A program made the position numbers and the translations under genes. The notes under the pieces were generated by a model. It ran no database searches and had not been told where the DNA came from. It worked only from the letters and a program-made list of their open reading frames with translations. From Herbidospora galbida (GTDB lineage Bacteria > Actinomycetota > Actinomycetes > Streptosporangiales > Streptosporangiaceae), in the NCBI RefSeq assembly GCF_005233835.1, contig NZ_SZQA01000016.1, positions 62,001-126,000 of the forward strand: a DNA stretch of 64,000 bases, written 5' to 3'. Every line of letters begins with the position of its first letter. The stretch's first letter is position 1. This document shows, one piece after another, positions 39,760-59,501 of this stretch.

Positions 39760-40716
39760 CTAGCGCACCCCGAGCGCGGGGGCAGCCATGTACCACCTCG
39801 CGTGCCCATCGCCTCTGGTCAGAGAGTCGAGACGGCGCGGAAGTTCCTGCCGGGAGAACGGATCGCCAAGGGCGTTCCTGATGTGGATTCCGACGGCGTA
39901 CATGTCCCTGATCTCCATCAGAGTCGCGTAGCCGGGCCAATCTCGCAGGTCAGAGCCGTAGGCGTGGGCGAAGGCGTCGACGTCGCCGGCCGAGAGGCCG
40001 AATCTCCGCTGTCCGTGGTAGGTGTGCACCAGGTCCCACTCACGGGGACCCACGGCCACGCCGTCCCAATCGCAAAGAATCGCATTACCGTCGCGGCAGC
40101 GGAGCAGATTGTCGATCCAGGCGTCGCCGTGGAGCAGAACCGGCGGTCCCGAATCAAGAGTGTGCCAACGATCGGTCAGTTCTTCGATGCGGTCGCCGAG
40201 CCAGCGGCGCTGGTAGGCGGTGAGCACCTCGGCCCGGTGCTCGACCGCGTGCCGGACCTCGGCCAGCGGGTCGGTGAGCCGCCGGAGCGGGATCGACGTC
40301 GGCACCGGTTCGCGGTGGAGATCGCGCAGCACGTGGCCGAGCTCGGTGGTGGTCGGGGAGCCGTTGGAGCGGACGTACCGCCAGAAGGTGACCGCCCGGC
40401 CGCCGTGCACGATCGGCTGGTGCGGGATCTCGTCGACCGGGCGGACCGTCGGGAAGCCCCGGTCGGCCAGCCAGCGGGCCACCGCCAGCACGGCCGGGAG
40501 CCGGGTGAGGGCGTCGGGGGCGGTGGCGATCCGGACCACCATGTCGCCCCGCAGCTTGAAGACGGCGTTGCTGCGCAGCCGCATCAGCCTCGCCCCGCCC
40601 GCGTCGAGCCCGATGCGGTCGCAGACCGCGCGCAGGACGGTGAAGGCCTCGTCGGCGAGCGGGCGGGCGGTCGTGGCGCGGGCGAGGTGCGTGATCGTCA
40701 CGTGTGAGGCGCTCAT
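39760..40716 (-). CDS. Aminoglycoside phosphotransferase-fold kinase
   Basis: A 318-residue APH-family protein. The catalytic loop is VLLHGDAWIDNLL (HGDxxxxN), followed by LCDWDGVAVGPREWDLV, the metal-binding Asp block. It is the usual partner of helix-turn-helix/TPR regulators in actinomycetes. Its ATG overlaps the regulator stop (ATGA), so both come from one transcript starting near 42146. The substrate is unknown. Confidence 0.9.
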   Translation of the reverse strand: MSASHVTITHLARATTARPLADEAFTVLRAVCDRIGLDAGGARLMRLRSNAVFKLRGDMVVRIATAPDALTRLPAVLAVARWLADRGFPTVRPVDEIPHQPIVHGGRAVTFWRYVRSNGSPTTTELGHVLRDLHREPVPTSIPLRRLTDPLAEVRHAVEHRAEVLTAYQRRWLGDRIEELTDRWHTLDSGPPVLLHGDAWIDNLLRCRDGNAILCDWDGVAVGPREWDLVHTYHGQRRFGLSAGDVDAFAHAYGSDLRDWPGYATLMEIRDMYAVGIHIRNALGDPFSRQELPRRLDSLTRGDGHARWYMAAPALGVR

Positions 40717-42146
40717 ATGGCCAGCCGGAGGGACGACTCCGACAGGACCTGGTTCAGGTTGCGGACGGCGGGGAGCCGCGGATCGGCCTCGTTCAGCAGC
40801 GCCTTCGCCCGGGTGATGACGATCGAGGTGCGGTGCTCGGCCGGGACCTGGCTGAGCGCCTGGGCGGCGAGGCGGCAGGCCTCCTCGTAGTCGCCGTGGC
40901 GGGCCAGGTGGGTGGCCTGGTCGAGCAGGATCAGCGCCGGGTCGATCGTCTGGAACCCCGAGTCCATCTCCAGGTTCTGGAGCTGCGAGTCGTCGCCGAG
41001 CTCGATCAGGGTGCCGGTGCGATAGAAGCTCATGCGCTTCTCGGTGAAGACGAAGGCGAGGTCGTCCTGGCTCATGCCGCGCATGCGGGCGAAGATCTGC
41101 TCGGCCTCGGCGAGGGCGATGCGGGCGGCCTTGCGGTCGCCCATCCGGGCCAGGGCCCGCGCCTCGGCCGCCGCCGCGAGGGCCGCGGGGGAACTGGGGG
41201 CCGAACCGGCCAGCATGCGGGCCTCGCGGGCCAGCCGGACGGTCTCGGTGAGGTCGCCGTAGTAGTAGGGCAGCATCGTCTGGTTGGCCCGGACCAGCGC
41301 GCGTAAGCGCAGGTCGCCGACGTCGTCGGCGGAGGTGCGGGCGGTGCCGTACCAGGCGTGGGCCTGGCGGGTGTCGCCGAGCTTCATCAGGGCGTCGGCC
41401 GAGAGCAGGGCCAGCATCGTGGTGGCCGTCAGGAGGCGGCGCTGCACGCCGGCGGGCTGGCGGGCGCCGGTCAGTTTGCGCACGTCGGCCAGCTCCAGCA
41501 TCACCCGGCACAGCATGGGCGTGGGCGGGGTGGTCATGTATTCGCGCCGGTAGCGCAGCACCTGCTCGTCGAGCCGGTCGAGCTGGTCTTCGGTCACCGT
41601 CGTGGTGGCCAAGGACCGGTCCAAATCGTGCCGGGTGCCCTCGACCTCGGCGAAGAACCTGCCGTTGGGGGTGCCCATCAGCATCGCCTGGTGGAACAGC
41701 GCCCGCCGGTCGGTGTCGTCGTCGGCCAGGTCCTCGACGTGGACGGAGTCTTCGGAGGACCCGTTGGCCACGACCACGACCTTCTGGCTCACGCCGGGGT
41801 CGTCGCAGTAGTCGGCGGCGAGGCCGAGGCGTACCGCGTTGGCCTTGTAGAGCCGGGCCAGCAGGTCGATCGTCTGGGGGCGCGGTCGCGCCCGGTTGTT
41901 CTCCCATGCGTTGAGCAGGTCGATGCTGGCCCTCGGCAGGCCCAGCGACTGCTGCTCACAGAGGTATTCGAGTTCCTCGATCGCCTGCCGCGCGGACCAT
42001 CCCCGGCCGAGCCGGTGCGCCTTCAGCATGCTGACGCCGCAGCAGCCGTGGATCGCCTGGACCGTCTGCCACATCGACCACTGCCGTGCCTCGGCCTGCT
42101 CGCGCCAGCGACGAGCACATGCCGGAGAGTGCTCTCCTCGGGCCAT
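40713..42146 (-). CDS. Helix-turn-helix regulator with TPR-type sensor region
   Basis: A 477-residue protein. The N-terminal 120 residues contain a helix-turn-helix of the XRE type (LPRASIDLLNAWENNRARPR then PQTIDLLARLYKANAVRLG). Residues about 170-477 are helical with alanine-rich repeats (HAWYGTARTSADDVGDLRL, ALARMGDRKAARIALAEAEQ) typical of TPR sensor domains that bind peptides or ligands. It is divergent from the 96-residue gene at 42422 and probably regulates it and its own operon. Such regulators in mycelial actinomycetes are linked to development, but the target here is not known. Confidence 0.85.
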   Translation of the reverse strand: MARGEHSPACARRWREQAEARQWSMWQTVQAIHGCCGVSMLKAHRLGRGWSARQAIEELEYLCEQQSLGLPRASIDLLNAWENNRARPRPQTIDLLARLYKANAVRLGLAADYCDDPGVSQKVVVVANGSSEDSVHVEDLADDDTDRRALFHQAMLMGTPNGRFFAEVEGTRHDLDRSLATTTVTEDQLDRLDEQVLRYRREYMTTPPTPMLCRVMLELADVRKLTGARQPAGVQRRLLTATTMLALLSADALMKLGDTRQAHAWYGTARTSADDVGDLRLRALVRANQTMLPYYYGDLTETVRLAREARMLAGSAPSSPAALAAAAEARALARMGDRKAARIALAEAEQIFARMRGMSQDDLAFVFTEKRMSFYRTGTLIELGDDSQLQNLEMDSGFQTIDPALILLDQATHLARHGDYEEACRLAAQALSQVPAEHRTSIVITRAKALLNEADPRLPAVRNLNQVLSESSLRLAI

Positions 42147-42421: not shown

Positions 42422-42712
42422 ATGGCGATGAAGGCAGATCGCAGCGAGGCGATGGACCACCTCGAACGGCTCGCCGCCCAACTTGAGGCGCACTCGTTCC
42501 AGGTACGCCTGTCGGCGCCGGCCGGCCTCTACCCCCGGCTGCGTGTGGTGAACCCGATGGCCCCGGCCATGGCCGAGGACGTGCTGGCGTCCAACGCCAA
42601 CGACGGAGAGTGGTGGTACTGGCTCTCCTGGGCCGGTCGCATCGGGCACGCCTCGGACGTCGTGACCGCCGCCGAGCGCATCGCCTCGGTTCTGCACGTG
42701 ATCCGCCGATAG
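42422..42712 (+). CDS. Small protein of unknown function divergent from the TPR regulator
   Basis: A 96-residue soluble protein: MAMKADRSEAMDHLERLAAQ, a middle PRLRVVNPMAPAMAEDVLAS and a Trp-rich end (GEWWYWLSWAGRIG). GGAG lies 8 nt before the ATG. I do not recognise a family by name. Its place opposite a helix-turn-helix/TPR regulator gene, a common arrangement in this group of bacteria, suggests it is that regulator's target. A hairpin 60 nt after its stop may end the transcript. Confidence 0.75.
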   Translation: MAMKADRSEAMDHLERLAAQLEAHSFQVRLSAPAGLYPRLRVVNPMAPAMAEDVLASNANDGEWWYWLSWAGRIGHASDVVTAAERIASVLHVIRR

Positions 42713-42804: not shown

Positions 42805-43037
42805 GGCCCACAAGCCGAACCGGACCAGCTGTCGCCGGCCGCCCACGCCCACCCACCGAGGCGCGGGCCGTACCTCCACCCGACCGATTTGTCCATAGCC
42901 GATCGCCCGCCATGACGCGTGGTTCATTACTCGGACAACCCGTTTGACCTGTCTCACAATGTGGCATTCATGATGTGCACCGCACGTCTGCCCGTTTCTA
43001 TCGACAGGACGCGGATTTCTGGCTTACCCTCGGCTAG
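42805..43037 (+). promoter_or_regulatory. Gene-free, AT-richer promoter region of the CysRS-like gene
   Basis: Beyond the hairpin the base composition drops. TCGACA (about 43001-43006), 18 nt, TACCCT (43025-43030) and 7 nt lead straight to the GTG at 43038, which suggests a leaderless transcript. I see no ribosome site and no gene in this stretch. Confidence 0.55.
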
Positions 43038-44378
43038 GTGGGACTTCGCCTATACGATACTTTCAGCCGGTCGGTCCGCGATTTCTCCCCCCGAATTCCG
43101 GGAATCGCATCGATTTATCTCTGCGGCCCCACCGTCGTCGTCCCACCCCATGTCGGGCAAATACGCTCACAAGTGAACTTCGATATTCTGCACCGCTGGC
43201 TCTTATATTCCGGATATCGCGTTCTCTTCTGCCGCAACGTCACCGACATCGAAGACAAAATCATCAGCCGCTCGCTGTCCGAGGGCGTCCACTGGTGGCG
43301 GATCACCGACCCGGTCTACCGCTCCTTCGAGAGCACCTACGAGGCCCTCGGCTGCCTTCCGCCCAGCGTGGAGCCCCGGGCGACCGGCCACATCCCCGAG
43401 ATGCTGGAGCTGATCGAGCAACTGCTCGCCTCCGGCAACGCCTACACCGCCGACGGCGACGTGTATTTCTCGGTCTCCTCCTTCCCGGGCTACGGCGAAC
43501 TCTCCGGACAGCGCCCGAGCCAGATGCGCGGCGGCGAGGAACCCGGTCACGGCAAACGCGATCCCCGCGACTTCGCGCTCTGGAAAAGAGGCCGCCCCGG
43601 AGAACCCGTTTGGCACGCGCCATGGGGAGACGGCCGGCCCGGATGGCATCTGGAATGCTCGGCGATGGCGCGGAAATATCTGGGCGCCGAATTCGACATC
43701 CACGGCGGCGGGGCCAATCTCATTTTCCCGCACCACGAGAACGAGATCGCCCAGTCGCGCGCCGCCGGCGACGGTTTCGCGCGATTCTGGATTCACAACG
43801 GCCCGGTCACCCACCGGGGCGAGAAGATTCGCAAGGTGGCGAAGAACCCTCTGGCGGTGCACACGTTACTGCGGCGGATCAGGCCGGTGGAACTGCGCTA
43901 TTACCTGGCCGCCGCCCACTATCGGTCGCCGATGGAATTCTCGGTGGGGGCGGTGGAGGAGAGCGCGGTGGCGTACCGGCGGATCGAACGCTTCGTTCAC
44001 CGCGTGGCCGTCGGTGCGCCGGGCGAGCTTCCGCCGCAGTTCAGAGAGGCGATGGACCACGACCTGAATCTCCCGCAGGCCGTTTCGCTGATTCACGCGG
44101 CCGTCAATGAGGGGAACGCCGCCCACGATTCCGGCGACGTTCTCAAGGCGGCGCGGAAATGCGCCGAGGTAAGGGCGATGCTCGACGTGCTCGGCCTCGA
44201 TCCGATGAGCGCCCACTGGGCCAGGGAAACGCAGTTGCGGGAAGTCGCCGGGGCCGTGCTCGGTGTGGTCCGAAATCTCGCCGAGGCCAGCGCGGAGCGC
44301 GGCGAGTTCGAACGGGCCCGGATCATGCACCGGCAGATCGACACGGCACTCAAGATTCGACAGAGGGTTACGCTCTGA
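43038..44378 (+). CDS. Divergent cysteinyl-tRNA synthetase-like protein with degraded HIGH and KMSKS motifs
   Basis: A 446-residue class I synthetase of the CysRS family, near full length. The zinc site that selects cysteine is kept: Cys29 in YLCGPTV, Cys207 in WHLECSAM, His232 and Glu236 in HHENEIAQS. The two ATP motifs are changed: HIGH is HVGQ (residues 38-41) and KMSKS is KIRKV (263-267, in GEKIRKVAKN). NVTDIEDKI and FWIHNGPV are well conserved. It is thus unlikely to be the housekeeping enzyme; it may be a cysteine ligase, a regulatory paralogue, or a drug-insensitive copy. Codons in the first 100 residues contain unusually many A/T third positions. The nucleoside hydrolase gene starts 3 nt after its stop. 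MshC, the mycothiol homologue, keeps HIGH and KMSKS, so it is not MshC. Confidence 0.85.
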   Translation: MGLRLYDTFSRSVRDFSPRIPGIASIYLCGPTVVVPPHVGQIRSQVNFDILHRWLLYSGYRVLFCRNVTDIEDKIISRSLSEGVHWWRITDPVYRSFESTYEALGCLPPSVEPRATGHIPEMLELIEQLLASGNAYTADGDVYFSVSSFPGYGELSGQRPSQMRGGEEPGHGKRDPRDFALWKRGRPGEPVWHAPWGDGRPGWHLECSAMARKYLGAEFDIHGGGANLIFPHHENEIAQSRAAGDGFARFWIHNGPVTHRGEKIRKVAKNPLAVHTLLRRIRPVELRYYLAAAHYRSPMEFSVGAVEESAVAYRRIERFVHRVAVGAPGELPPQFREAMDHDLNLPQAVSLIHAAVNEGNAAHDSGDVLKAARKCAEVRAMLDVLGLDPMSAHWARETQLREVAGAVLGVVRNLAEASAERGEFERARIMHRQIDTALKIRQRVTL

Positions 44379-44381
44379 GGC

Positions 44382-45317
44382 GTGCCCGCACCAAAGAAGA
44401 TCCTCATTGACTGCGACCCCGGGATCGACGACGCACTGGCCCTCACCCTCGCCCACGGCTGCCCGGCGCTCGACCTCGTCGGGATCACCACGGTCGGCGG
44501 CAACGTCTCCCTGGAACTGACGACCCTCAACGCGCTCAAACTGCGGGAGTTCCTGGGATTCCCGTCGGTCCCCGTGGTCGCCGGCTCCGCCGGGGCGCTC
44601 GTCGCCAGCCGCATCGACGCCTCGGAGGTGCACGGCTTCGGCGGGCTGGGCGCGGCGGTGCTGCCGGAACCCCGCCTGAAGGCGACCGACGGGCACGCGG
44701 TCGACTTCATCGTCGACACCCTCTCGGCCTCCCCCGGCGAGATCTCCCTGGTCGCCGTCGGCCCTCTGACCAACATCGCCCTGGCGGTGCGCAGGGAACC
44801 CCGGATCACCGAGTGGGCCCGCGACTTCACGATCATGGGCGGGTCGTACACGCGGGGCAACCGCACCCCGGCGGCCGAGTTCAACATCGCGGCCGACCCG
44901 GAAGCGGCGGCGATCGTCTTCGGCGCCGGCTGGACGGTCAACCAGATCGGCCTGGACGTCAGCCTGACGGCCCTGGCCAACGGGCCGATCCTCGACCGGA
45001 TGCGGGACCTCGGACGGCTCGGCGGCGAGCTGCTGATCCCCAGCCTGGAGTTCTACGGCATGACGACGGCCCACGACGGCCCAGCGGTCCACGACGCCCT
45101 GGCGGTCGCCCATGTCGCCGACCCGAGCCTGTTCGAGTTCACGCCGGGCGTGGTCGACGTGGAGACGGCGGGCCGGTTCACGTCGGGGATGACGGTGATC
45201 GACTTCAACCTGCGCGGCCGCGTGCCGAACGCGAACGTGGCGAGGTCGATCGACGTGGACCGCTTCTGGGACCTCACTCTGTCGAGCTTCGCTCAGGTGG
45301 AGGCACGACTCCCTTAG
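44382..45317 (+). CDS. Inosine/uridine-preferring nucleoside hydrolase
   Basis: A 311-residue calcium-dependent N-ribohydrolase that splits nucleosides into base and ribose. The signature DCDPGIDDALAL is present near the N-terminus, GGNVSLELTTLNAL follows, and later AVGPLTNIA, AEFNIAADPEAA and THD-like AHDGPAVHDALAV. It starts with GTG 3 nt after the CysRS-like gene, so they form an operon. Its last 44 bp overlap the 3' end of the convergent NACHT gene. Confidence 0.93.
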   Translation: MPAPKKILIDCDPGIDDALALTLAHGCPALDLVGITTVGGNVSLELTTLNALKLREFLGFPSVPVVAGSAGALVASRIDASEVHGFGGLGAAVLPEPRLKATDGHAVDFIVDTLSASPGEISLVAVGPLTNIALAVRREPRITEWARDFTIMGGSYTRGNRTPAAEFNIAADPEAAAIVFGAGWTVNQIGLDVSLTALANGPILDRMRDLGRLGGELLIPSLEFYGMTTAHDGPAVHDALAVAHVADPSLFEFTPGVVDVETAGRFTSGMTVIDFNLRGRVPNANVARSIDVDRFWDLTLSSFAQVEARLP

Positions 45318-47466
45318 CCAGATGGTCCGAGAGGATCACATGGGGGAATCGGTAGCTCTTGCCGTCCCGCTGGAGGAGGCCGATGTCGGTGGCGTGGGAG
45401 ATGAACGCCCGGTAGCGGAAGGGCAACCGCCCCAGAACGGCCTGCACGATCCAGCCGCCGAGCCCGGCGACCCAGAAGAAGATCATGTAGCTCGGGACCA
45501 CCGAAGTGACGACGCCGGCCGCGAGCAGTCCCACCGCGCCCATCCCGCCGAAGAACGACACCGTCCCGGTCTCCGCATACGCGGCTCCGATCGCGATCCC
45601 GATGACGGCACCGGTCAAGGTCACGACGAAGACCTTTCCCCCGCCACTCACCTCGCCGGTCGGTGGCGAGCTCTCGTCCCTGTTCGCCAGCACGAAGGCC
45701 AACGGGACACCGATCCAGAGCCCGAGCATGAAACAGGCGTGCCCGGCGGGGTCGCCGGTGAGAAGTGCGAAGACCACACAGACCAGCCCCAACGCCAGGG
45801 CGACTCCCGCGGCGCGGACGTCGGAATCGTCGCCCGCGGTCCCGAGAGCGTAGATCGCGGACCCTGCGGACACCACGCCCAGGGCGCCGAAAAGGATCTT
45901 CTGGCCGGTGCCGCCCACGGACGCCATCATGATGTCGGCGGCGTAGATCAGCGCCCCTCCCCCCGCCCCCAGCACGACACCGGCGACGCCCGCGCGCACG
46001 CGGCTCAGGGGAGGTCCGGCCGTCCACCGCGGAGGGCCCTCCAGTCCTGAGGCGACCAGCACGAACACCCCGCTCCCGGCCAGGACCAGCCCACCCGCCA
46101 GACTCCACCCGATCCCGACGCTCCCGACCATCTTCCCGGCCACGATCGCCGACCAGATGCCTACCGCGATCGGTACCACGACCCCGTTGATCATCCTCTG
46201 GGTCGGCCGGTCCAACGCGGTCCACCAGCTCAACTCGGTGCCCACCAGCGCGGGCCCGGCGAGAGTACGCCGATTGGTCGAGGTCATCAGCCGCGCCACC
46301 TGCGTGATCCAGGTGAGCACCTGGGCCGGCGGGTACCGGCGCCGGCGATTGCGGCGCAGCTTCAGTACCTGGTCGACGAAGGAGCTCAGCAGCGCGTCAC
46401 GGTCCGGCGCGGTCGCCCCGGAACTGTTCGAGGCGACGATGAGGACGTAAAGCCAGAGCGGCGCCGTGATCAGGCCGAGCAGGGCGGGGTCGTCGTCGAC
46501 GGCCTGGTGGGCGAGCCGCAGCCGGCCCTCTCCCTGGGACAGATAGCTCAGCACCTGCTCTGAGGTGAGAGGGCGGATGACGACCGCGCCGCGCAGCAGG
46601 AACCGCTGGGACTCCGGCAGATCCTCGTATTCGGCCGCTCTGCTGCCGACGACGATCTGTACCTGCGGATAGCGGTCGTAGAGCGCGTTCACGCCGGCCA
46701 CGCAACGGGCCCGATACTCCTCCGGCACCTCGTCGAACCCGTCCAGGAGCAGGGCGAGGCGACCGTCCTTGAGCCACGCGTCGGCCACGCCGTCACCGAT
46801 GCCGTAGAGGGAGTCGATTCTGCGCAGCAGCCAGTCGCCCAGTTCGGGGAGCGACGAACGCCGGAAGAGCGACTGGCGGCTGACGGCCCAGTCGGCGAGT
46901 TCGACGACGACCGGCAGCGGTACGCGAGGCTGGTCGGTGCGGGCCAGCAGGGCCTCCGCGAGTTCGAGGATCATCGTGGTCTTGCCCGCGCCGGGCGATC
47001 CCAGGATGAGCATCGACCCGTCGAGATGGTCGTAGACGTCGAGCGGGCTCGCGCCCGGCGGCGGCTCCCACGGGTCCTCGCCTCGGGTGACATGCCAGGT
47101 ACGGGGTGGCGCCCCGACCGCGTCGGACACGGCGTCGAGGTCGAGCCGGGCGCGGGCGACGCGGACCAGTGACTGGTCGAGCCGCTGGGTCACGTAGCGG
47201 CGGATGTTGGCGATGGCGCGGGAGCGGAAGTCCGGGTGAACGTAACCCGCGATCCTGCCCTCGGGCCGCTTCTCCAGTGACTGAAGCACGGTGAAGACGA
47301 TCGCGGTCACGGCCAGCAGCCCCACCAGGGGCCAGATCCAGCCTTCATAGGGCTTGAGCCATGCCGGAGCCTCACCGCCCGTCGCGTAATTGATCACAAT
47401 CGGTAAGAGGACCAGGCCATCGGCCGCGGCCAGGACCAGCAGGACGGTCCGCCAGAACTTCGACAC
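45274..47466 (-). CDS. Membrane-anchored NACHT-domain ATPase (STAND family)
   Basis: A 730-residue protein. Two N-terminal membrane helices (about 6-25 and 42-62) precede a linker and the NACHT domain: Walker A GSPGAGKT (156-163), Walker B LALLLDGFDEVP (237-248), then VGSRAAEYEDLP as sensor 1. Residues about 415-690 hold some eight further hydrophobic helices, and the C-terminus (FRYRAFISHATDIGLLQRDG, then KSYRFPHVIL) looks like a small winged-helix module. Proteins of this kind act as switches; some bacterial NACHT proteins defend against phage, but this membrane architecture has no role I can name. It is transcribed alone and converges with the nucleoside hydrolase. Confidence 0.85.
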   Translation of the reverse strand: MSKFWRTVLLVLAAADGLVLLPIVINYATGGEAPAWLKPYEGWIWPLVGLLAVTAIVFTVLQSLEKRPEGRIAGYVHPDFRSRAIANIRRYVTQRLDQSLVRVARARLDLDAVSDAVGAPPRTWHVTRGEDPWEPPPGASPLDVYDHLDGSMLILGSPGAGKTTMILELAEALLARTDQPRVPLPVVVELADWAVSRQSLFRRSSLPELGDWLLRRIDSLYGIGDGVADAWLKDGRLALLLDGFDEVPEEYRARCVAGVNALYDRYPQVQIVVGSRAAEYEDLPESQRFLLRGAVVIRPLTSEQVLSYLSQGEGRLRLAHQAVDDDPALLGLITAPLWLYVLIVASNSSGATAPDRDALLSSFVDQVLKLRRNRRRRYPPAQVLTWITQVARLMTSTNRRTLAGPALVGTELSWWTALDRPTQRMINGVVVPIAVGIWSAIVAGKMVGSVGIGWSLAGGLVLAGSGVFVLVASGLEGPPRWTAGPPLSRVRAGVAGVVLGAGGGALIYAADIMMASVGGTGQKILFGALGVVSAGSAIYALGTAGDDSDVRAAGVALALGLVCVVFALLTGDPAGHACFMLGLWIGVPLAFVLANRDESSPPTGEVSGGGKVFVVTLTGAVIGIAIGAAYAETGTVSFFGGMGAVGLLAAGVVTSVVPSYMIFFWVAGLGGWIVQAVLGRLPFRYRAFISHATDIGLLQRDGKSYRFPHVILSDHLAKGVVPPPERSSTE

Positions 47467-52992: not shown

Positions 52993-54099
52993 CTACCGCC
53001 GGCCCGACGAAGCGTCGGCGGCCCGTTCATAACAGCGCTCGAACCCCTCAAGGACCACCGGCCACGAGCATCTGACCGGCGACGTCGACCGATTGTGCTC
53101 GGCGATCGCCCCTCGTAGCGCAGGGTCCCCCGCGAGCCGGGCCACCGCACCGGCCAGCTCGTCGAAGGTGCGCCCCAGCAGGCCCTCCTTGCCCGGGCTC
53201 ACGAAATCGGCCACACCGCTCTGCGACCGTGCCACCACCGGCACCCCCGCCGCGCGTGCCTCCAGCGCGGCCAGACCGAACGACTCCCGGGGCGCCGGGG
53301 CGACGAAGACGTCGGCCTCCGCCAGCAGCCCCCTGATCTGGTCCCGGGTATACCTTCCCGGCATCTCGACCCAGTCGATCCGCTTCGACCTCAGATGGCG
53401 TTCCATCTGGCCCCGTGCGGGCCCGTCTCCCACGATCGTGGCCCGCAGGGTGACGCCCCTGCGCGTTCTGGCCTTGGCGGCCTCCAGGAGCTTCAGGAGT
53501 CGTACGGGCTGCTTGCGCGGCGCCAGCCGTCCCACTGCGACCACGTGGACCTCGTCTGAGGGGACGCGGGCCGGGCCTTCGGGCCGCCAGCCCGACAGGT
53601 CGAGCCCGTTCGACACGACGTGGACCGGGACGTTCGGCCCCGCCACGCGCCGGATCGGCCGGGCGGCGGCCTCGGAGACGGCCGTGCCGACGAGCCCCCA
53701 GCCCGTCCAGTTCCAGGTCTTCAGCGACCGGTAGAGGTTCGCGGTGACCGGATCCCACATGCTGTGGACGGTCACGACCGTGGGCAGCCCCACCCGGTGG
53801 GCGGCCAGCACCCCCATCCACGCGAACGGCGAGACCGCGCCCGTGTGGACGTGCACGACGTCGGGGCTGCGCTGCGTCATGATCCGGATCAGATGGCCCG
53901 TGCCGCGCGGGTGGACCGGCAGGTCGAACGGCATGCGCGCGGTGATCCGGTGGACGCCCGGCAGCGGCTCGCCCGGCGTGGCGGTGACCACCTCGACGTC
54001 GTGCCCGGCCTCGCGCTGGCTCCTGATCAGGTCGGCGACCTGCACCTCGATGCCGCCCAGCCGGGGCAGGTAGCAGTCGCTCACGTGAAGGATGCGCAC
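52993..54099 (-). CDS. GT-B glycosyltransferase (family 4)
   Basis: A 368-residue retaining glycosyltransferase. The N-terminal domain starts RILHVSDCYLPRLGGIEVQV and contains VVHVHTGAVSPFAW; the C-terminal nucleotide-sugar domain has VAVGRLAPRKQPVRLL, PGRYTRDQIRGLLAEADVFV and PRESFGLAALEARAAGVPVV, the E-x7-E motif of GT4. The GTG at 54099 was chosen because it starts the conserved LGGI-type N-terminus. Probable product: a mannosylated lipid or cell-surface glycan, as with PimB-like enzymes; the donor is not certain. It is divergent from the PIG-L deacetylase gene. Confidence 0.9.
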   Translation of the reverse strand: MRILHVSDCYLPRLGGIEVQVADLIRSQREAGHDVEVVTATPGEPLPGVHRITARMPFDLPVHPRGTGHLIRIMTQRSPDVVHVHTGAVSPFAWMGVLAAHRVGLPTVVTVHSMWDPVTANLYRSLKTWNWTGWGLVGTAVSEAAARPIRRVAGPNVPVHVVSNGLDLSGWRPEGPARVPSDEVHVVAVGRLAPRKQPVRLLKLLEAAKARTRRGVTLRATIVGDGPARGQMERHLRSKRIDWVEMPGRYTRDQIRGLLAEADVFVAPAPRESFGLAALEARAAGVPVVARSQSGVADFVSPGKEGLLGRTFDELAGAVARLAGDPALRGAIAEHNRSTSPVRCSWPVVLEGFERCYERAADASSGRR

Positions 54100-54157
54100 C
54101 CGATCAGCCTGACAGAGGTCCGGACCCGGCTCAAACGCGCGATCGGAGGGTGGGATC

Positions 54158-54961
54158 ATGTGTCGGGTGAAGACAGCGGTGTTCTTTCACGCCCATCCCG
54201 ACGACGAGGCGCTGCTGACGGCCGGGACCATGGCGATGCTCGCGGCCGAGGGCCATCGCGTGGTCCTGGTGGTGGCCACGGCCGGCGAACACGGCCTGGC
54301 CGAACTACCCCACGGCGACGAGCTCGGCGAGGCCCGCATGAACGAGCTCTACGACTCGGCCGCCCGCCTCGGCTGCGCCCGCGTGGTGCGCCTCGGCTAC
54401 GCCGACTCGGGCCTGGAGGCCGGCGGCGGCGCCGAAGACCGCCCCGCCGACGCCTTCATGGACGCCGACATCGAAGAGGCCGCCACCCGCCTGGCCGCGA
54501 TCCTCGACGAGGAGAAGGCCGAACTCCTGACCATCTACGACCCCTCGGGCGGCTACGGCCACCCCGACCACGTGCAGGTCTACCGGGTCGGCACCCGGGC
54601 GGCGAAGCTCGCCGCGACCCCGCCGATCCTCCTGGAGGCCACCGTCAACCGCGACCCCCTGCTCAAGGGCGTGCGGCTGGCCGCGAAGTTCTACCCGCAG
54701 CTCGACATCCGCTCGTTCGAGACCGCCTACTCGGCCTCGGCCGACATCACCCACCGGGTCAACGTCCGCAAGTGGACGTCGGTGAAACGCCAGTCGATGG
54801 CCGCCCACGCGACCCAGGCCAGCGGCGGCGACGGCGACCGCACCCTGGCCGCCCTGCTGAAGATCCCGGCCCCGGTCTACCGCTACGTCTTCGGCACCGA
54901 GTGGTACGTCCGCCGCGACCTGCCCCCCGGCACGAAGATGACCCATCCCTTCGACGACTGA
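54158..54961 (+). CDS. PIG-L/LmbE family N-acetylglucosaminyl deacetylase-like protein
   Basis: A 267-residue zinc hydrolase. The metal-binding AHPDDEALLTAG is near the N-terminus, and GGYGHPDHVQVYR provides the third ligand and active-site His. The family includes MshB and Mca (mycothiol) and lipid deacetylases. The C-terminus (VFGTEWYVRRDLPPG) matches a common actinobacterial subgroup distinct from MshB. GGAGGG lies 7 nt before the ATG. It is divergent from a glycosyltransferase and followed by an LPG-synthase-type membrane protein, a set that suggests glycolipid or cell-envelope chemistry. Confidence 0.9.
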   Translation: MCRVKTAVFFHAHPDDEALLTAGTMAMLAAEGHRVVLVVATAGEHGLAELPHGDELGEARMNELYDSAARLGCARVVRLGYADSGLEAGGGAEDRPADAFMDADIEEAATRLAAILDEEKAELLTIYDPSGGYGHPDHVQVYRVGTRAAKLAATPPILLEATVNRDPLLKGVRLAAKFYPQLDIRSFETAYSASADITHRVNVRKWTSVKRQSMAAHATQASGGDGDRTLAALLKIPAPVYRYVFGTEWYVRRDLPPGTKMTHPFDD

Positions 54962-55014
54962 TTCTCGTACCAGAGGATGAGCGAAGCGGTCTCGGTGCCC
55001 GGCAGACTGGGCGC

Positions 55015-56076
55015 ATGAACAGGTGGGTGCGGGTCGCCATGTCGGTCGCGTCGCTGGCGCTGGCCGCGGGGCTGATCGTCTACCTGCCCTCGATCATCGG
55101 GGCGCTCACGGGGGCGACGATGTCGTGGGGCCAGATCGGCGACCTGTTCGCCGCGGTCTCCTGGCAGATGGCGGCGCTGATGACCGCCGTGTGGCTGGCC
55201 AGCCTGCTCGCCTACACCTTCGTGCTCACCGGGTCGCTGCCCGGCCTCGGGCACACCCAGGCTCTCACCCTGAACGCCGCCGGGAGCGCGGTCAGCAACC
55301 TGCTGCCCTTCGGCGGGGCGGCCGGGGTCGCGCTGACCATGGCGATGACCAAGGGCTGGGGGTTCCCCGTCGGGGCCATCGTCGCCTCGACCCTGGTCAG
55401 CGGGGTCTGGAACATGCTCTTCCGGTTCCTGCTGCCCGCGGTGGGGATCCTCGCCCTCCTGCTGTCGGGCACCGCGCTGTCGCCCACGGTCACCAAGGCC
55501 GGGTGGGCCGCCTCGGCCTCGCTGCTCGCGCTCGTCGTGATCGTCGGGGCGGCGCTGTTCTGGGATCGGGGAGCCCGCGTCATCGGGCGCGGCGCCGACC
55601 GGCTCGTGGCGCTGTCGCCCGGGAAGATCCGGCCCGCCGAGCGGTGGGCCTCGACCGCCATCCACAAGCTGCGCGACGACATGGCCGGGGTGGTCCGGTC
55701 GGGCTGGCTGAAGATGTCGTTCGGGATGGTGTTCTTCCTCGGCTTCCAGTGGCTGATCCTGGCGCTGTGCATGCTCGGGACCGGCTCGTGGGTCGGGCCG
55801 GCCCAGTCGATCGCGGTGTTCGCGCTGTCGCGCGTGCTGACGAGCGCGCTGGCCACGCCCAGCGGCGCCGGGTTCATGGAGGCCGGCACCGCGCTCGCGC
55901 TGATCGGGTTCGGCGCGGGCGAGGCGCAGGCCACCGCCGCCGCGATCCTGTTCGGATTCTGGACGTACACGATCGAGATCCCGTGGGGCGGGCTCGCCCT
56001 CGGGGGCTGGGCGCTTCTGCGCAGGCGCGACGGGAGGCGGGAAGCCCAACCGGTCACCCGCGAGAAAGCATCATGA
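55015..56076 (+). CDS. Lysylphosphatidylglycerol-synthase-type membrane protein (UPF0104)
   Basis: A 353-residue integral membrane protein with about eight helices, such as SVASLALAAGLIVYLP and MFFRFLLPAVG-like segments, and the family block NAAGSAVSNLLPFGGAAGVAL, plus SRVLTSALATPSGAGFMEAG near the end. It corresponds to the flippase-like half of MprF without the synthetase domain. It probably moves a lipid across the membrane. It follows the PIG-L deacetylase gene by 53 nt. Confidence 0.88.
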   Translation: MNRWVRVAMSVASLALAAGLIVYLPSIIGALTGATMSWGQIGDLFAAVSWQMAALMTAVWLASLLAYTFVLTGSLPGLGHTQALTLNAAGSAVSNLLPFGGAAGVALTMAMTKGWGFPVGAIVASTLVSGVWNMLFRFLLPAVGILALLLSGTALSPTVTKAGWAASASLLALVVIVGAALFWDRGARVIGRGADRLVALSPGKIRPAERWASTAIHKLRDDMAGVVRSGWLKMSFGMVFFLGFQWLILALCMLGTGSWVGPAQSIAVFALSRVLTSALATPSGAGFMEAGTALALIGFGAGEAQATAAAILFGFWTYTIEIPWGGLALGGWALLRRRDGRREAQPVTREKAS

Positions 56077-56159
56077 TCTTGCGCGACAATTGACCTCACT
56101 CTCCCCGAAGTGAGGATGACCGGTGAACGTCTTGTGTACCGTTTGGCGGCGCGCATAGC

Positions 56160-59100
56160 GTGGCGGCTGACATGAGCACGGTGGTCTTCCGGGTCCTGGG
56201 TCCGGTCGAAGCGTATGACGGCGACAACGAGCTCGATCTGGGCGGGCTCCGCCAGCGGGCCGTTCTGGCGCGGCTTCTGGTCGCCCGGGGCCAGGTCGTA
56301 CCCGTCGACACCCTCCTTTTCGACCTGTGGTCCGACGACGCCGCCAAGGGCGCGCAGTCGGGCCTGCAGGTGTACATCTCCCGGCTGCGCCGGGTGCTCG
56401 AGCCCAACCGTCCCCGTGGCGGGCCCAACCGGCTGCTGGTCACCGTCGCCTCCGGCTACGCCCTGCGGGCCGCGCCGGAGCAGATCGACGCCCTCCGGTT
56501 CGAGGCGACCGTCCGGGCCGCCGGCGAGCGGCTCGACGACAACCCGCAGACGGCCAGGGCGCGGCTCGAGTCGGCGCTGGGCCTGTGGCAGGGCACGCCC
56601 TACAGCGACTTCCAGGATCAGGCCTGGGCCGAGGCCGAGGTGACCCGCCTGAGCGAGCTGCGGCTGGTGGCGCGGGAGCGCCACGCCGACGCCGGGCTGC
56701 GCCTGGGGCTCCACGCCGAGACCGTGCCCGACCTCGAAGCGCTCACCACCGAACACCCGCTGCGCGAGGAGGGCTGGCGGCTGCTGTCGCTCGGCCTCTA
56801 CCGCTGCGGGCGGCAGGGCGACGCGCTGGCCGCGCTGCGCCGGGCCCGCACCATCCTCGACGACGAGCTCGGCATCGACCCCGGCCCCGCCCTGCGCAAG
56901 CTGGAGAGCGACATCCTGTCGCAGGATCCGGGGCTCGAACTGACCCCGCTGCCGCGCCGGGCCGAGACCACCCCGACCTGGCCGCCGCGCCCGCTCGAAG
57001 TGAGCCCGCTGCCGCCGCTGGAGCCCGAGCCGTTCGTCGGCCGCGAGTCCGAGCTGACCGCGCTGCTGGCCGCCGCCCCCCACGCCAAGTCGGGCCGGCT
57101 CGCCATCGCGATGGTCACCGGCGACCCGGGGTCGGGCAAGACGACGCTGCTGCGGCAGCTGTCCGGCCGCCTCGAAGGGCAGGGCTGGATCATCGCCGGG
57201 GGCGGCTGCCCCGACAGCGCGGCGACCCCGCCCGGCTGGGCCTGGGTCGAGGTGCTGCGGGCGCTGATCGCCCGGCGCGGCGCCGGGGAGTACGGCGCGC
57301 TGCTCGCGCCGCTGCTCGACGACCACGCGCCGGTCCCCAACGACGACGACGCCTCCGGCGGCTTCCGGCTCCACCGGGCGGTCGGCGGCTTCCTGTCGGG
57401 CGTGGCCCGCGAGGCCCCGCTGCTGATCACCCTCGAAGACCTCCACTGGGCCGACGACCAGACTCTCGCGCTGCTGCGCGCGCTGCCGAGCCTGCTGGCC
57501 GCCAGCCGGGTGCTGCTCGTGGTGACCTGCCGCGAGGGCGAGCTCAGCGACCCGCAGCAAGACGTGCTGGCCGCCCTGGCCCGCCTCGGCCCGGTCCGGG
57601 TCGAGCTCGACGGGCTGGCCCCGGCGCAGGCGGCCGAGCTCGTGCGGGCGACGTTCGTACGCGGCGAGATCGACCACGACGTCGTGGCCGCGATCGTCGA
57701 GCGCACCGGCGGCAACCCGTTCTACGTGAAGGAGACGGTCCGCCTCTTCGAGGCGGAGGCCGACATCTCCCAGGTGCCTTCCGGCGTACGCGACGTGCTC
57801 CGCCGCCGGATCGCGCGCCTGCCCGAGAAGGCCCAGCAGATCCTGCTGCAGGCCGCCGTGATCGGCCGCGACGTCGACGTCGACGTGCTGGTCGACATCT
57901 CCGGCGAAGAAGACTCCGTCGTCGACGCGGTCGAGGCCGCGCTGCTGGCCGGCCTGGTCACCGAACCGGGCGCCGGGCGGCTGCGCTTCGACCACGAGAT
58001 GGTCCGCGACACCCTCTACTCCGACGCCTCCCGGCTGCGCCGCTCGCGCCTCCACGCGGCGGTCGCCTCGGTCATCGAGTCGCGCACGCCGGGCGACGTG
58101 GCGGCCCTGGCCCACCACTACGACCTGGCCGGCACCGCCGACACGGCCGCCAAGGCGGTCCGCTACGCGGGCCTGGCCGGCGAGCAGGCCGAACGCCGCT
58201 ACGCCTACCGCGAGGCCGCCTCGCAGTGGGAACGCGCGATCAACGCCTACGACCGCGCGGGCGGGCGTCCGGGCAGAGACCGGCTCGAACTCCAGGTCCG
58301 CACGATCCACGCGCTGGCCCTGGCCGGTGACATGACCGCCGCGCGCGCCCACCGGCGCGACGCGATGGACGTGGCGCTGCCGCTCGGCGACCTCGAACTG
58401 ACCGCCCGGGTGGCGGCGGCCCTGGCCGTGCCGCACAAGGGCATCGCCCGCGACTTCACCCGCACGGCGTGGGAGATCGTCGACGTCACCGAGAAGGCGC
58501 TGCTGGAGCTGCCGCCCAGCGAGCACTCGCTGCGCGCCAGCCTGCTGGCCACCCTGGCCCTGGAGCTAGAGGGCTCGGCCACCCCGCGCGGCGAGCAGGC
58601 GTCACTGGAGGCCGAGGAGCTGGCCCGCGCCAGCGGCGACCCCAACCTGCTGGCGATGGCGCTGAGCGGCCGCCTGCGGCAGTCCTACACGCTGGCCCAG
58701 GTCGACGAGCGCGAAGACATCGGCCGCGAACTGCTCCGGGTCGGCGCCGAGTCGGGCCAGATCTCGGTGCAGACCCTCGCCCACCTGGTGCTGCTCGAAT
58801 GCGCGGCGGCCCGCGGCGACTTCGCCGAGGCCGACCGCCAGCTCGCCCGCGCCGACCAGCTGGGCCGGCAGTACGGCCTGGCCGCCCCGGCGGCCGTCGG
58901 CGCCTGGTACGCCGGTCAGCGCCTCATGATCGCCGGCGACTACGCGGGCGCCGAGACGGCCTACCGCAACGCGGCCCGCCTGACGGCCCGCGCGGGCATG
59001 CTCGAAGGCCGCCAGGACCTCCCGCTGATCGCGACCTTCTGCCTCCACCTGGTGCAGGGCAAGGCCGACGAGATGGCCGACGCGCTCGGCGAGGCCCACA

Positions 59101-59501
59101 CCCGCGGCGCCAAATGGACCCTCGACGCCTACGCGGTCGCCCTGGCCGAGGCGGGTCACCTGCGCGACGCCCGCGCGGTGGCCGTGACCCGCGAGCCGGT
59201 CCGCGGCGACTTCCTCTACGAACTGGCGATGACCTGGCGGGCCCTCGCGGGCCTGCGCCTCGACGACGTCGACCGCATGAACGAGGCCTACGCCGCCCTG
59301 CGCCCCTTCCACGACCGCATCGCGGGCGCCGGAACGGGCGTGGTGGCCCTGTGGCCGGTCGCCCGGACCCTGGGCGACCTCGCCGTCAAGCTGGGTCGTC
59401 CGGACGCCAGGGCGCACTACGAGAAGGCCCTGGCAGTGGCGCGGCGGGTCGGCGCGCAGCGCTGGGTCGACGACGCCGAGATCGCCCTCGACCGGGCCTA
59501 G
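56160..59501 (+). CDS. SARP/AfsR-type regulator with BTAD, ATPase and TPR domains (1113 aa)
   Basis: A large activator. Residues about 8-100 form the OmpR-like winged helix (FRVLGPVEAYDGDNELDLGG, LRQRAVLARLLVARGQVVPV); about 105-255 is the bacterial transcriptional activator domain (DALRFEATVRAAGERLDD, LDDELGIDPGPALRKLE); the ATPase has Walker A GDPGSGKT (321-328) and Walker B LITLEDLHWADD; the rest is TPR-like. SARP proteins switch on secondary-metabolite clusters, but no such cluster is in the window. The GTG at 56160 has no ribosome site; an ATG at 56172 (MSTVVFRVLG) is equally possible. It resembles the ATPase regulator at 11593 in architecture. Confidence 0.92.
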   Translation: MAADMSTVVFRVLGPVEAYDGDNELDLGGLRQRAVLARLLVARGQVVPVDTLLFDLWSDDAAKGAQSGLQVYISRLRRVLEPNRPRGGPNRLLVTVASGYALRAAPEQIDALRFEATVRAAGERLDDNPQTARARLESALGLWQGTPYSDFQDQAWAEAEVTRLSELRLVARERHADAGLRLGLHAETVPDLEALTTEHPLREEGWRLLSLGLYRCGRQGDALAALRRARTILDDELGIDPGPALRKLESDILSQDPGLELTPLPRRAETTPTWPPRPLEVSPLPPLEPEPFVGRESELTALLAAAPHAKSGRLAIAMVTGDPGSGKTTLLRQLSGRLEGQGWIIAGGGCPDSAATPPGWAWVEVLRALIARRGAGEYGALLAPLLDDHAPVPNDDDASGGFRLHRAVGGFLSGVAREAPLLITLEDLHWADDQTLALLRALPSLLAASRVLLVVTCREGELSDPQQDVLAALARLGPVRVELDGLAPAQAAELVRATFVRGEIDHDVVAAIVERTGGNPFYVKETVRLFEAEADISQVPSGVRDVLRRRIARLPEKAQQILLQAAVIGRDVDVDVLVDISGEEDSVVDAVEAALLAGLVTEPGAGRLRFDHEMVRDTLYSDASRLRRSRLHAAVASVIESRTPGDVAALAHHYDLAGTADTAAKAVRYAGLAGEQAERRYAYREAASQWERAINAYDRAGGRPGRDRLELQVRTIHALALAGDMTAARAHRRDAMDVALPLGDLELTARVAAALAVPHKGIARDFTRTAWEIVDVTEKALLELPPSEHSLRASLLATLALELEGSATPRGEQASLEAEELARASGDPNLLAMALSGRLRQSYTLAQVDEREDIGRELLRVGAESGQISVQTLAHLVLLECAAARGDFAEADRQLARADQLGRQYGLAAPAAVGAWYAGQRLMIAGDYAGAETAYRNAARLTARAGMLEGRQDLPLIATFCLHLVQGKADEMADALGEAHTRGAKWTLDAYAVALAEAGHLRDARAVAVTREPVRGDFLYELAMTWRALAGLRLDDVDRMNEAYAALRPFHDRIAGAGTGVVALWPVARTLGDLAVKLGRPDARAHYEKALAVARRVGAQRWVDDAEIALDRA

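Follow-up and report, generated by a model that had tools for sequence, protein, structure and literature searches.

A conserved, probably repurposed paralogue of cysteinyl-tRNA synthetase with an apparently rebuilt nucleotide site in Herbidospora and related actinobacteria

Paralogues of aminoacyl-tRNA synthetases that have taken up new jobs are few and instructive. Some are known as resistance genes. MshC, the cysteine ligase of mycothiol synthesis, does without anticodon recognition. According to an excerpt of the report on CysRS* of the Desulfobacterales, this paralogue of cysteinyl-tRNA synthetase (CysRS) lacks the anticodon-binding domain and charges a dedicated tRNA, SelC*, which is genetically coupled to it (PMC9437257). 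Here we describe CysL, our name for a CysRS paralogue encoded at 43038–44378 on the forward strand of the window, the 64,000-nucleotide stretch of Herbidospora galbida DNA that was analysed. The gene starts with GTG and encodes 446 residues with HxGQ, KIRK and GGAN motifs. No work on this paralogue was found among the open-licence papers listed. CysL is a conserved, repurposed CysRS and a clean case of its kind: it is found in one bacterial family, its ATP site has been rewritten in a fixed way beside an untouched cysteine site, its tRNA-reading end is degenerate, and it is under purifying selection. Its ligand would reveal how a synthetase turns to other chemistry.

In profile searches CysL reaches 349.4 bits against PF01406 and 248 bits against the MshC profile TIGR03447, the latter under the cut-off of 485.1. 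Against the cysS profile TIGR00435 it reaches 359.5 bits, above the equivalog cut-off of 340, which counts against repurposing. The profile score and the zinc and cysteine residues are those of a CysRS; the HIGH, KMSKS and GGxD motifs and the C-terminal segment are not. Annotation by this score would call CysL a tRNA ligase, a name that probably does not fit it. The 8.3 Mb genome encodes three PF01406 proteins, namely a canonical cysS product (G000:C29), CysL and an MshC-like protein (G000:C55), the last so called because it is the third and shorter one, with 404 residues and HLGH and KMSKS motifs. The preliminary description of this DNA had asked for a canonical cysS besides CysL, and since it is present in the same genome, CysL does not have to be the housekeeping enzyme. 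Among the matches listed, CysL is about 52–60% identical to the full-length canonical CysRS of relatives.

The comparison set comprises 43 loci from 43 genomes, the window included, and 24 aligned canonical CysRS. Residues C29, C207, H232 and E236, which we take to be the zinc ligands, and T69, W203 and H222, presumably the cysteine site, are invariant in all 43 CysLs, bearing out the earlier statement that the zinc and cysteine-recognition residues are kept. In the alignment their E. coli equivalents are C28, C209, H234 and E238, and T68, W205 and H224. In the excerpted report on MshC structures the zinc ligands are C43, C231 and H256 (PMC9736012).

The ATP motifs of the window protein are HVGQ (38–41) and KIRKV (263–267), as had been claimed, and the picture of a CysRS paralogue with a retained cysteine/zinc site and unusual ATP motifs is supported across the family. 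In 43 of 43 CysLs HIGH has become HxGQ, TDIDD has become TD[IMV]ED, and KMSKS has become K[IV][RH]K, after which three positions vary freely. The aspartate of GGxD is replaced by Asn in 41 and by Pro in 2. H38, G40, K263 and K266 (the last two being both lysines of KMSKS) are invariant, and the replacements are fixed rather than random. To call these motifs dead was therefore too strong; with both lysines surviving, the nucleotide site looks rebuilt. The GGxD aspartate, which we assume to be a ribose contact, is retained in all five solved CysRS and MshC sequences that were compared. One CysRS, 6UJD, carries HLGN, which indicates that an amide is tolerated at the fourth HIGH position. In the excerpted account of MshC, K289 of KMSKS and H55 of HIGH touch a sulfonamide that mimics a phosphate (PMC9736012); the counterpart of K289 is kept in CysL, and that of H55 is the glutamine.

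The 24 canonical CysRS share 169 invariant sites. Every one of the 43 CysLs preserves 107 of these; 30 more are mostly kept, 20 are replaced in most CysLs and 12 have changed to one fixed residue (at least 90%). By our own grouping, 17 of the 32 changed sites lie at residue 407 or beyond, 10 belong to or adjoin the HIGH, TDIDD, GGxD and KMSKS motifs of the ATP site, and 5 are elsewhere. The C-terminal segment is degenerate in all 43, with loss of residues that are invariant in canonical CysRS from position 407 on. Canonical CysRS end in EDTPxGPRW; RW within the last 25 residues is seen in none of the 43 CysLs. From E. coli CysRS we take this segment to be the anticodon-binding one. A structure model of CysL (mean pLDDT 64.6, pTM 0.63) is too weak to place ligands.

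Among the matches listed for 250 genomes of the family, CysL is present in 41 at 69% identity or more, and G085 and G121 encode further CysLs at 60% identity that share the motifs. On the basis of identity, the other listed matches, at 60% or less, were counted among the canonical and MshC-like proteins; these being the best matches only, a CysL under about 57% would hide among the canonical CysRS. A scan for the pattern CG[AP]TV...PHxGQ across 84,980 species, each represented by one genome, gave 38 stretches, of which one (L198) is not CysL and 37 are. The 37 CysLs came from Herbidospora, Acrocarpospora, Planotetraspora, Microbispora, Microtetraspora, Sphaerimonospora, an unclassified member of the Streptosporangiaceae and one actinobacterial metagenome-assembled genome. 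Such a scan detects solely copies with this pattern, and the CysL of G067 is not among its matches. Second CysRS genes are frequent on plasmids: 624 plasmid records hold a CysRS match, 503 of them from Klebsiella, all below 60% identity to CysL.

In a tree of 18 of the 43 CysLs, the 24 canonical CysRS and one MshC, the CysLs form one side of a branch with support of 100/100. CysL is a single clade beside CysRS. MshC is remote in the same tree and forms no common clade with CysL, a placement that depends on one MshC row with a very long branch. The tree program warned that long branches meet (L128 and L129 with canonical CysRS, and the MshC row), and the point at which CysL joins CysRS is therefore unsure. 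The dN/dS of CysL is 0.10 among seven Herbidospora, 0.14 among five Acrocarpospora and 0.14 among nine Microbispora; the gene is under purifying selection. Decay into a pseudogene is ruled out by these values and by the fixed motifs. In a midpoint-rooted tree of five neighbour proteins from 30 loci, the G085/G121 type groups with genomes that lack CysL (100/79), in which case CysL would be ancestral and would have been lost in those genomes. Ancestry with loss would follow only under the midpoint root, and the root is unsure.

The AT-rich 5′ codons pointed out in the preliminary description are real, GC3 being 0.60 in the first 60 codons and 0.84 after them; the acquisition drawn from them, taken as a recent event, is not supported. 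A low-GC3 start is found in 11 of 11 CysL loci measured, from five genera, and a dip common to all of them is no sign of recent arrival. In the regulator and small-protein genes described below, the first codons show a milder dip. Acquisition from AT-rich DNA was rejected on account of the dip in all 11 loci, the milder one in these two genes and the constant place of CysL in its block, and recent acquisition in general finds no support, given the single clade, the same position beside the same three genes in 43 of 43 loci, purifying selection and a conserved promoter.

The promoter-like motif lies at 43001–43037 on the forward strand, with TCGACA at 43001–43006, an 18-nt spacer, TACCCT at 43025–43030 and 7 nt to the GTG. 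TCGACA is present in all 43 loci. The second hexamer is TACCCT in 39, TACGCT in 3 and TATCCT in 1, the spacer is 18 nt in 42 and 17 in one, and the distance from the motif to the start codon is exactly 7 nt in every locus. Extended to the GTG (43001–43040), the motif has one match in the window, with 0.03 expected by chance. A simple scan for the sigma-70 consensus did not report it and listed one site inside the CysL gene instead; the motif was missed because TACCCT matches only 3 of the 6 consensus bases. The 7-nt distance would place the transcription start at the GTG, thereby allowing leaderless translation. The leaderless expression proposed earlier is thus well supported by the spacing in 43 of 43 loci, against which stands the sigma-70 scan, and the CysL mRNA is probably leaderless and made from its own conserved promoter.

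Upstream of the −35 hexamer lies an operator-like element at 42953–42978 on the forward strand, with the family consensus CTCACAATNNNCATTTNNNGATGTGC, from which the window copy differs at 3 positions. With up to 4 mismatches it occurs in 39 of 43 loci at about −85 to −60 and is missing in L122, L127, L128 and L129. As a control, 21 of 4000 random 200-base pieces matched, drawn from loci that contain the element itself. At up to 3 mismatches the whole genome has just one match, and so has the window. The element could be an activator site. In the window CysL, TTA is used twice, at codons 56 and 277, and the TTA frequency of CysL is 0.98 per 1000, compared with 0.07–0.52 in four neighbour genes. 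Regulation through bldA was considered; TTA occurs in 16 of the 43 CysLs, and not at a single shared position.

Three genes accompany CysL in all 43 loci. The small protein sm118 (42422–42712, forward strand) has 96 residues, is 78–99% identical to the 11 copies aligned with that of the window, and has no Pfam or NCBIfam match. Divergently oriented is the gene of an NsdA-family regulator with HTH and TPR-like parts (40713–42146, reverse strand), which scores 118.5 bits against NF053720 (cut-off 75), and 22.2 bits against the NsdA equivalog, for which 830 is required. Just 3′ of the regulator gene, an APH-type small-molecule kinase is encoded at 39760–40704 on the reverse strand (PF01636, 77 bits). 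CysL has one orientation in 41 loci and is inverted in place in two (L128, L129). The regulator and the 96-residue protein seem to belong to a broader family of regulator/small-protein pairs that has no name (G125, G095 and others), and the small protein has 9 matches in the genome G125. In several loci (L105, L107, L123) CysL is separated from the small protein by a gene on the opposite strand for an unknown protein of 247 residues; in L105 and L123 the same gap also holds a pair that by eye resembles a toxin-antitoxin system.

Farther downstream, at 52993–59501, lies a conserved block found with and without CysL. It encodes a GT4 glycosyltransferase related to BshA and MshA and far under those cut-offs (52993–54159, reverse strand), a PIG-L deacetylase whose best NCBIfam match is MshB, at 135.6 bits and under the cut-off of 224.35 (54158–54961, forward strand), a flippase-like LPG_synthase_TM membrane protein (55015–56076, forward strand, start approximate; PF03706, 55.7 bits) and a SARP/AAA regulator. 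The GT4 gene is within the fetched stretch in 36 of 43 CysL loci and was not found in that of the other 7. For control, 394 genomes from across the class were searched; 12 have the regulator at 70% identity or more, 6 with CysL and 6 without. In the six loci without CysL the kinase, the regulator and the small protein are present in 6 of 6, and so is the block of GT4, deacetylase, membrane protein and SARP. These six gave no CysL match, and other genes stand between the two blocks. The blocks being complete without it, CysL occupies a variable gap of an older block. Thus the neighbourhood alone is no proof of a joint pathway, and this position counts against a sensor and against a thiol-pathway role alike.

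The reading that we favour, and hold tentatively, is that CysL is a cysteine-binding enzyme that works independently of tRNA. It would be a neofunctionalised CysRS that has given up the charging of tRNA-Cys for translation, in which the zinc-dependent cysteine pocket would be intact, the nucleotide site rebuilt in a fixed way (HxGQ, GGxN, TDxED, K[IV][RH]Kx) and the anticodon-reading C-terminus lost. Retention of HxG and of both loop lysines suggests that a phosphate-bearing ligand may still be handled beside cysteine. Most likely CysL resembles MshC in needing no tRNA to activate cysteine or transfer it onto some acceptor, and it is probably made from its own promoter. The comparison shows paralogy, fixed motif changes, a degenerate C-terminus, purifying selection, a conserved promoter-like motif and a conserved neighbourhood, from which we infer cysteine binding, absence of tRNA charging, catalysis without tRNA and regulation. 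A tRNA partner was considered and rejected: neither the window nor the 14 other loci scanned, out of 42, have a tRNA gene close to CysL. The window from 36000 to 60000 has no Rfam match at the gathering threshold.

Given the replaced GGxD aspartate, the drift of the residues after the KMSKS-like motif and the want of a partner enzyme strictly tied to CysL, a protein that binds cysteine without catalysis is almost as good a fit. It is possible, as the preliminary description had suggested among other ideas, that CysL is a sensor, here of cysteine or cysteinyl-adenylate, acting with the NsdA-family regulator, the 96-residue protein and the APH-type kinase; we regard this, which follows closely, as somewhat doubtful. 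The linkage to these three genes in every locus, even where CysL is inverted, the altered ATP motifs of all CysLs and the operator-like element of 39 loci fit such a role. Invariant loop lysines are unexpected in a pure cysteine binder, and the regulator, kinase and small protein, complete in 6 of 6 loci without CysL, do not need it.

It appears unlikely that CysL serves as cysteine ligase in a second pathway of mycothiol type, together with the GT4 and the MshB-like deacetylase and leading to an undescribed thiol or cysteinyl amino sugar. If true, its rebuilt nucleotide site would have no like among the CysRS-type proteins of this comparison. The kinship of the PIG-L protein to MshB and of the GT4 to BshA and MshA parallels MshA-MshB-MshC, and the deacetylase and membrane protein stand beside GT4 wherever the stretch reaches. 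All family scores are under the equivalog cut-offs, however, seven loci yielded no GT4, and the same block in 6 of 6 loci without CysL suggests that the vicinity may be inherited gene order.

The nucleoside hydrolase (44382–45317, forward strand, 311 residues), an IUNH-family protein of UriH/RihC type and a facultative neighbour, does follow CysL as two open reading frames 3 nt apart, as was first described. It scores 294.3 bits against PF01156 (gathering cut-off 34.2) and 281.8 bits against UriH, below the cut-off of 450, and is also under that of RihC; the genome has two PF01156 hydrolases. The proposal that both proteins form one pathway on a cysteinyl nucleoside is very unlikely. The 3-nt spacing holds in 7 of 7 Herbidospora, 13 further loci have the hydrolase within 0.4 kb, making 20 of 43, and it is under purifying selection. 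In 21 of the 43 loci the fetched stretch showed no hydrolase; it lies 5 kb away in an Acrocarpospora (L097), and cannot be judged in L104, where the contig ends. Among the matches listed, the same type (at least 60%) is in 21 of 41 CysL genomes; at least 40 genomes that lack a CysL at 69% identity or more also have it, two of them by a partial match. A general pairing, whose co-occurrence the preliminary description had wished to see checked, is thus not borne out, and the cysteine-ribose product that rested on it is weakened. The hydrolase is probably an ordinary one that came to lie next to CysL in some members of the family, and the pairing is not the key feature of CysL. Within Herbidospora the NACHT-like protein at 45314–47466 varies far more than the proteins around it, being 45–63% identical in four relatives and without a match in L036 and L039.

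Least probable of all, a working, inhibitor-resistant CysRS for self-resistance, also raised earlier, can draw on the precedent of synthetase paralogues as resistance genes and on the APH-type kinase nearby, and is disfavoured by the degenerate C-terminal segment and the replaced GGxD aspartate in all 43.

Comparison with the described systems places CysL as follows. The hydrolase downstream shares the PF01156 family and the DCDPGIDDA motif with UriH and RihC, and scores under both cut-offs. CysRS* of the Desulfobacterales, as far as the excerpted source describes it, is likewise a CysRS paralogue without an anticodon-binding domain, whereas no tRNA gene stands near CysL in the window and the 14 of 42 other loci. 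With bacterial CysRS (TIGR00435) CysL has the zinc and cysteine site and a score above the profile cut-off in common; it differs in HxGQ, K[IV][RH]Kx, GGxN, TDxED and a degenerate C-terminal segment, and in being a second gene in a genome with a canonical cysS. MshC is CysRS-derived and has the cysteine/zinc site, like CysL, and the GT4 and PIG-L genes of the CysL block are similar to those of MshA and MshB, with which MshC works. The MshC sequence compared, in contrast, keeps HLGH, KMSKS and GGxD, and the genome with CysL has an MshC-like protein of its own.
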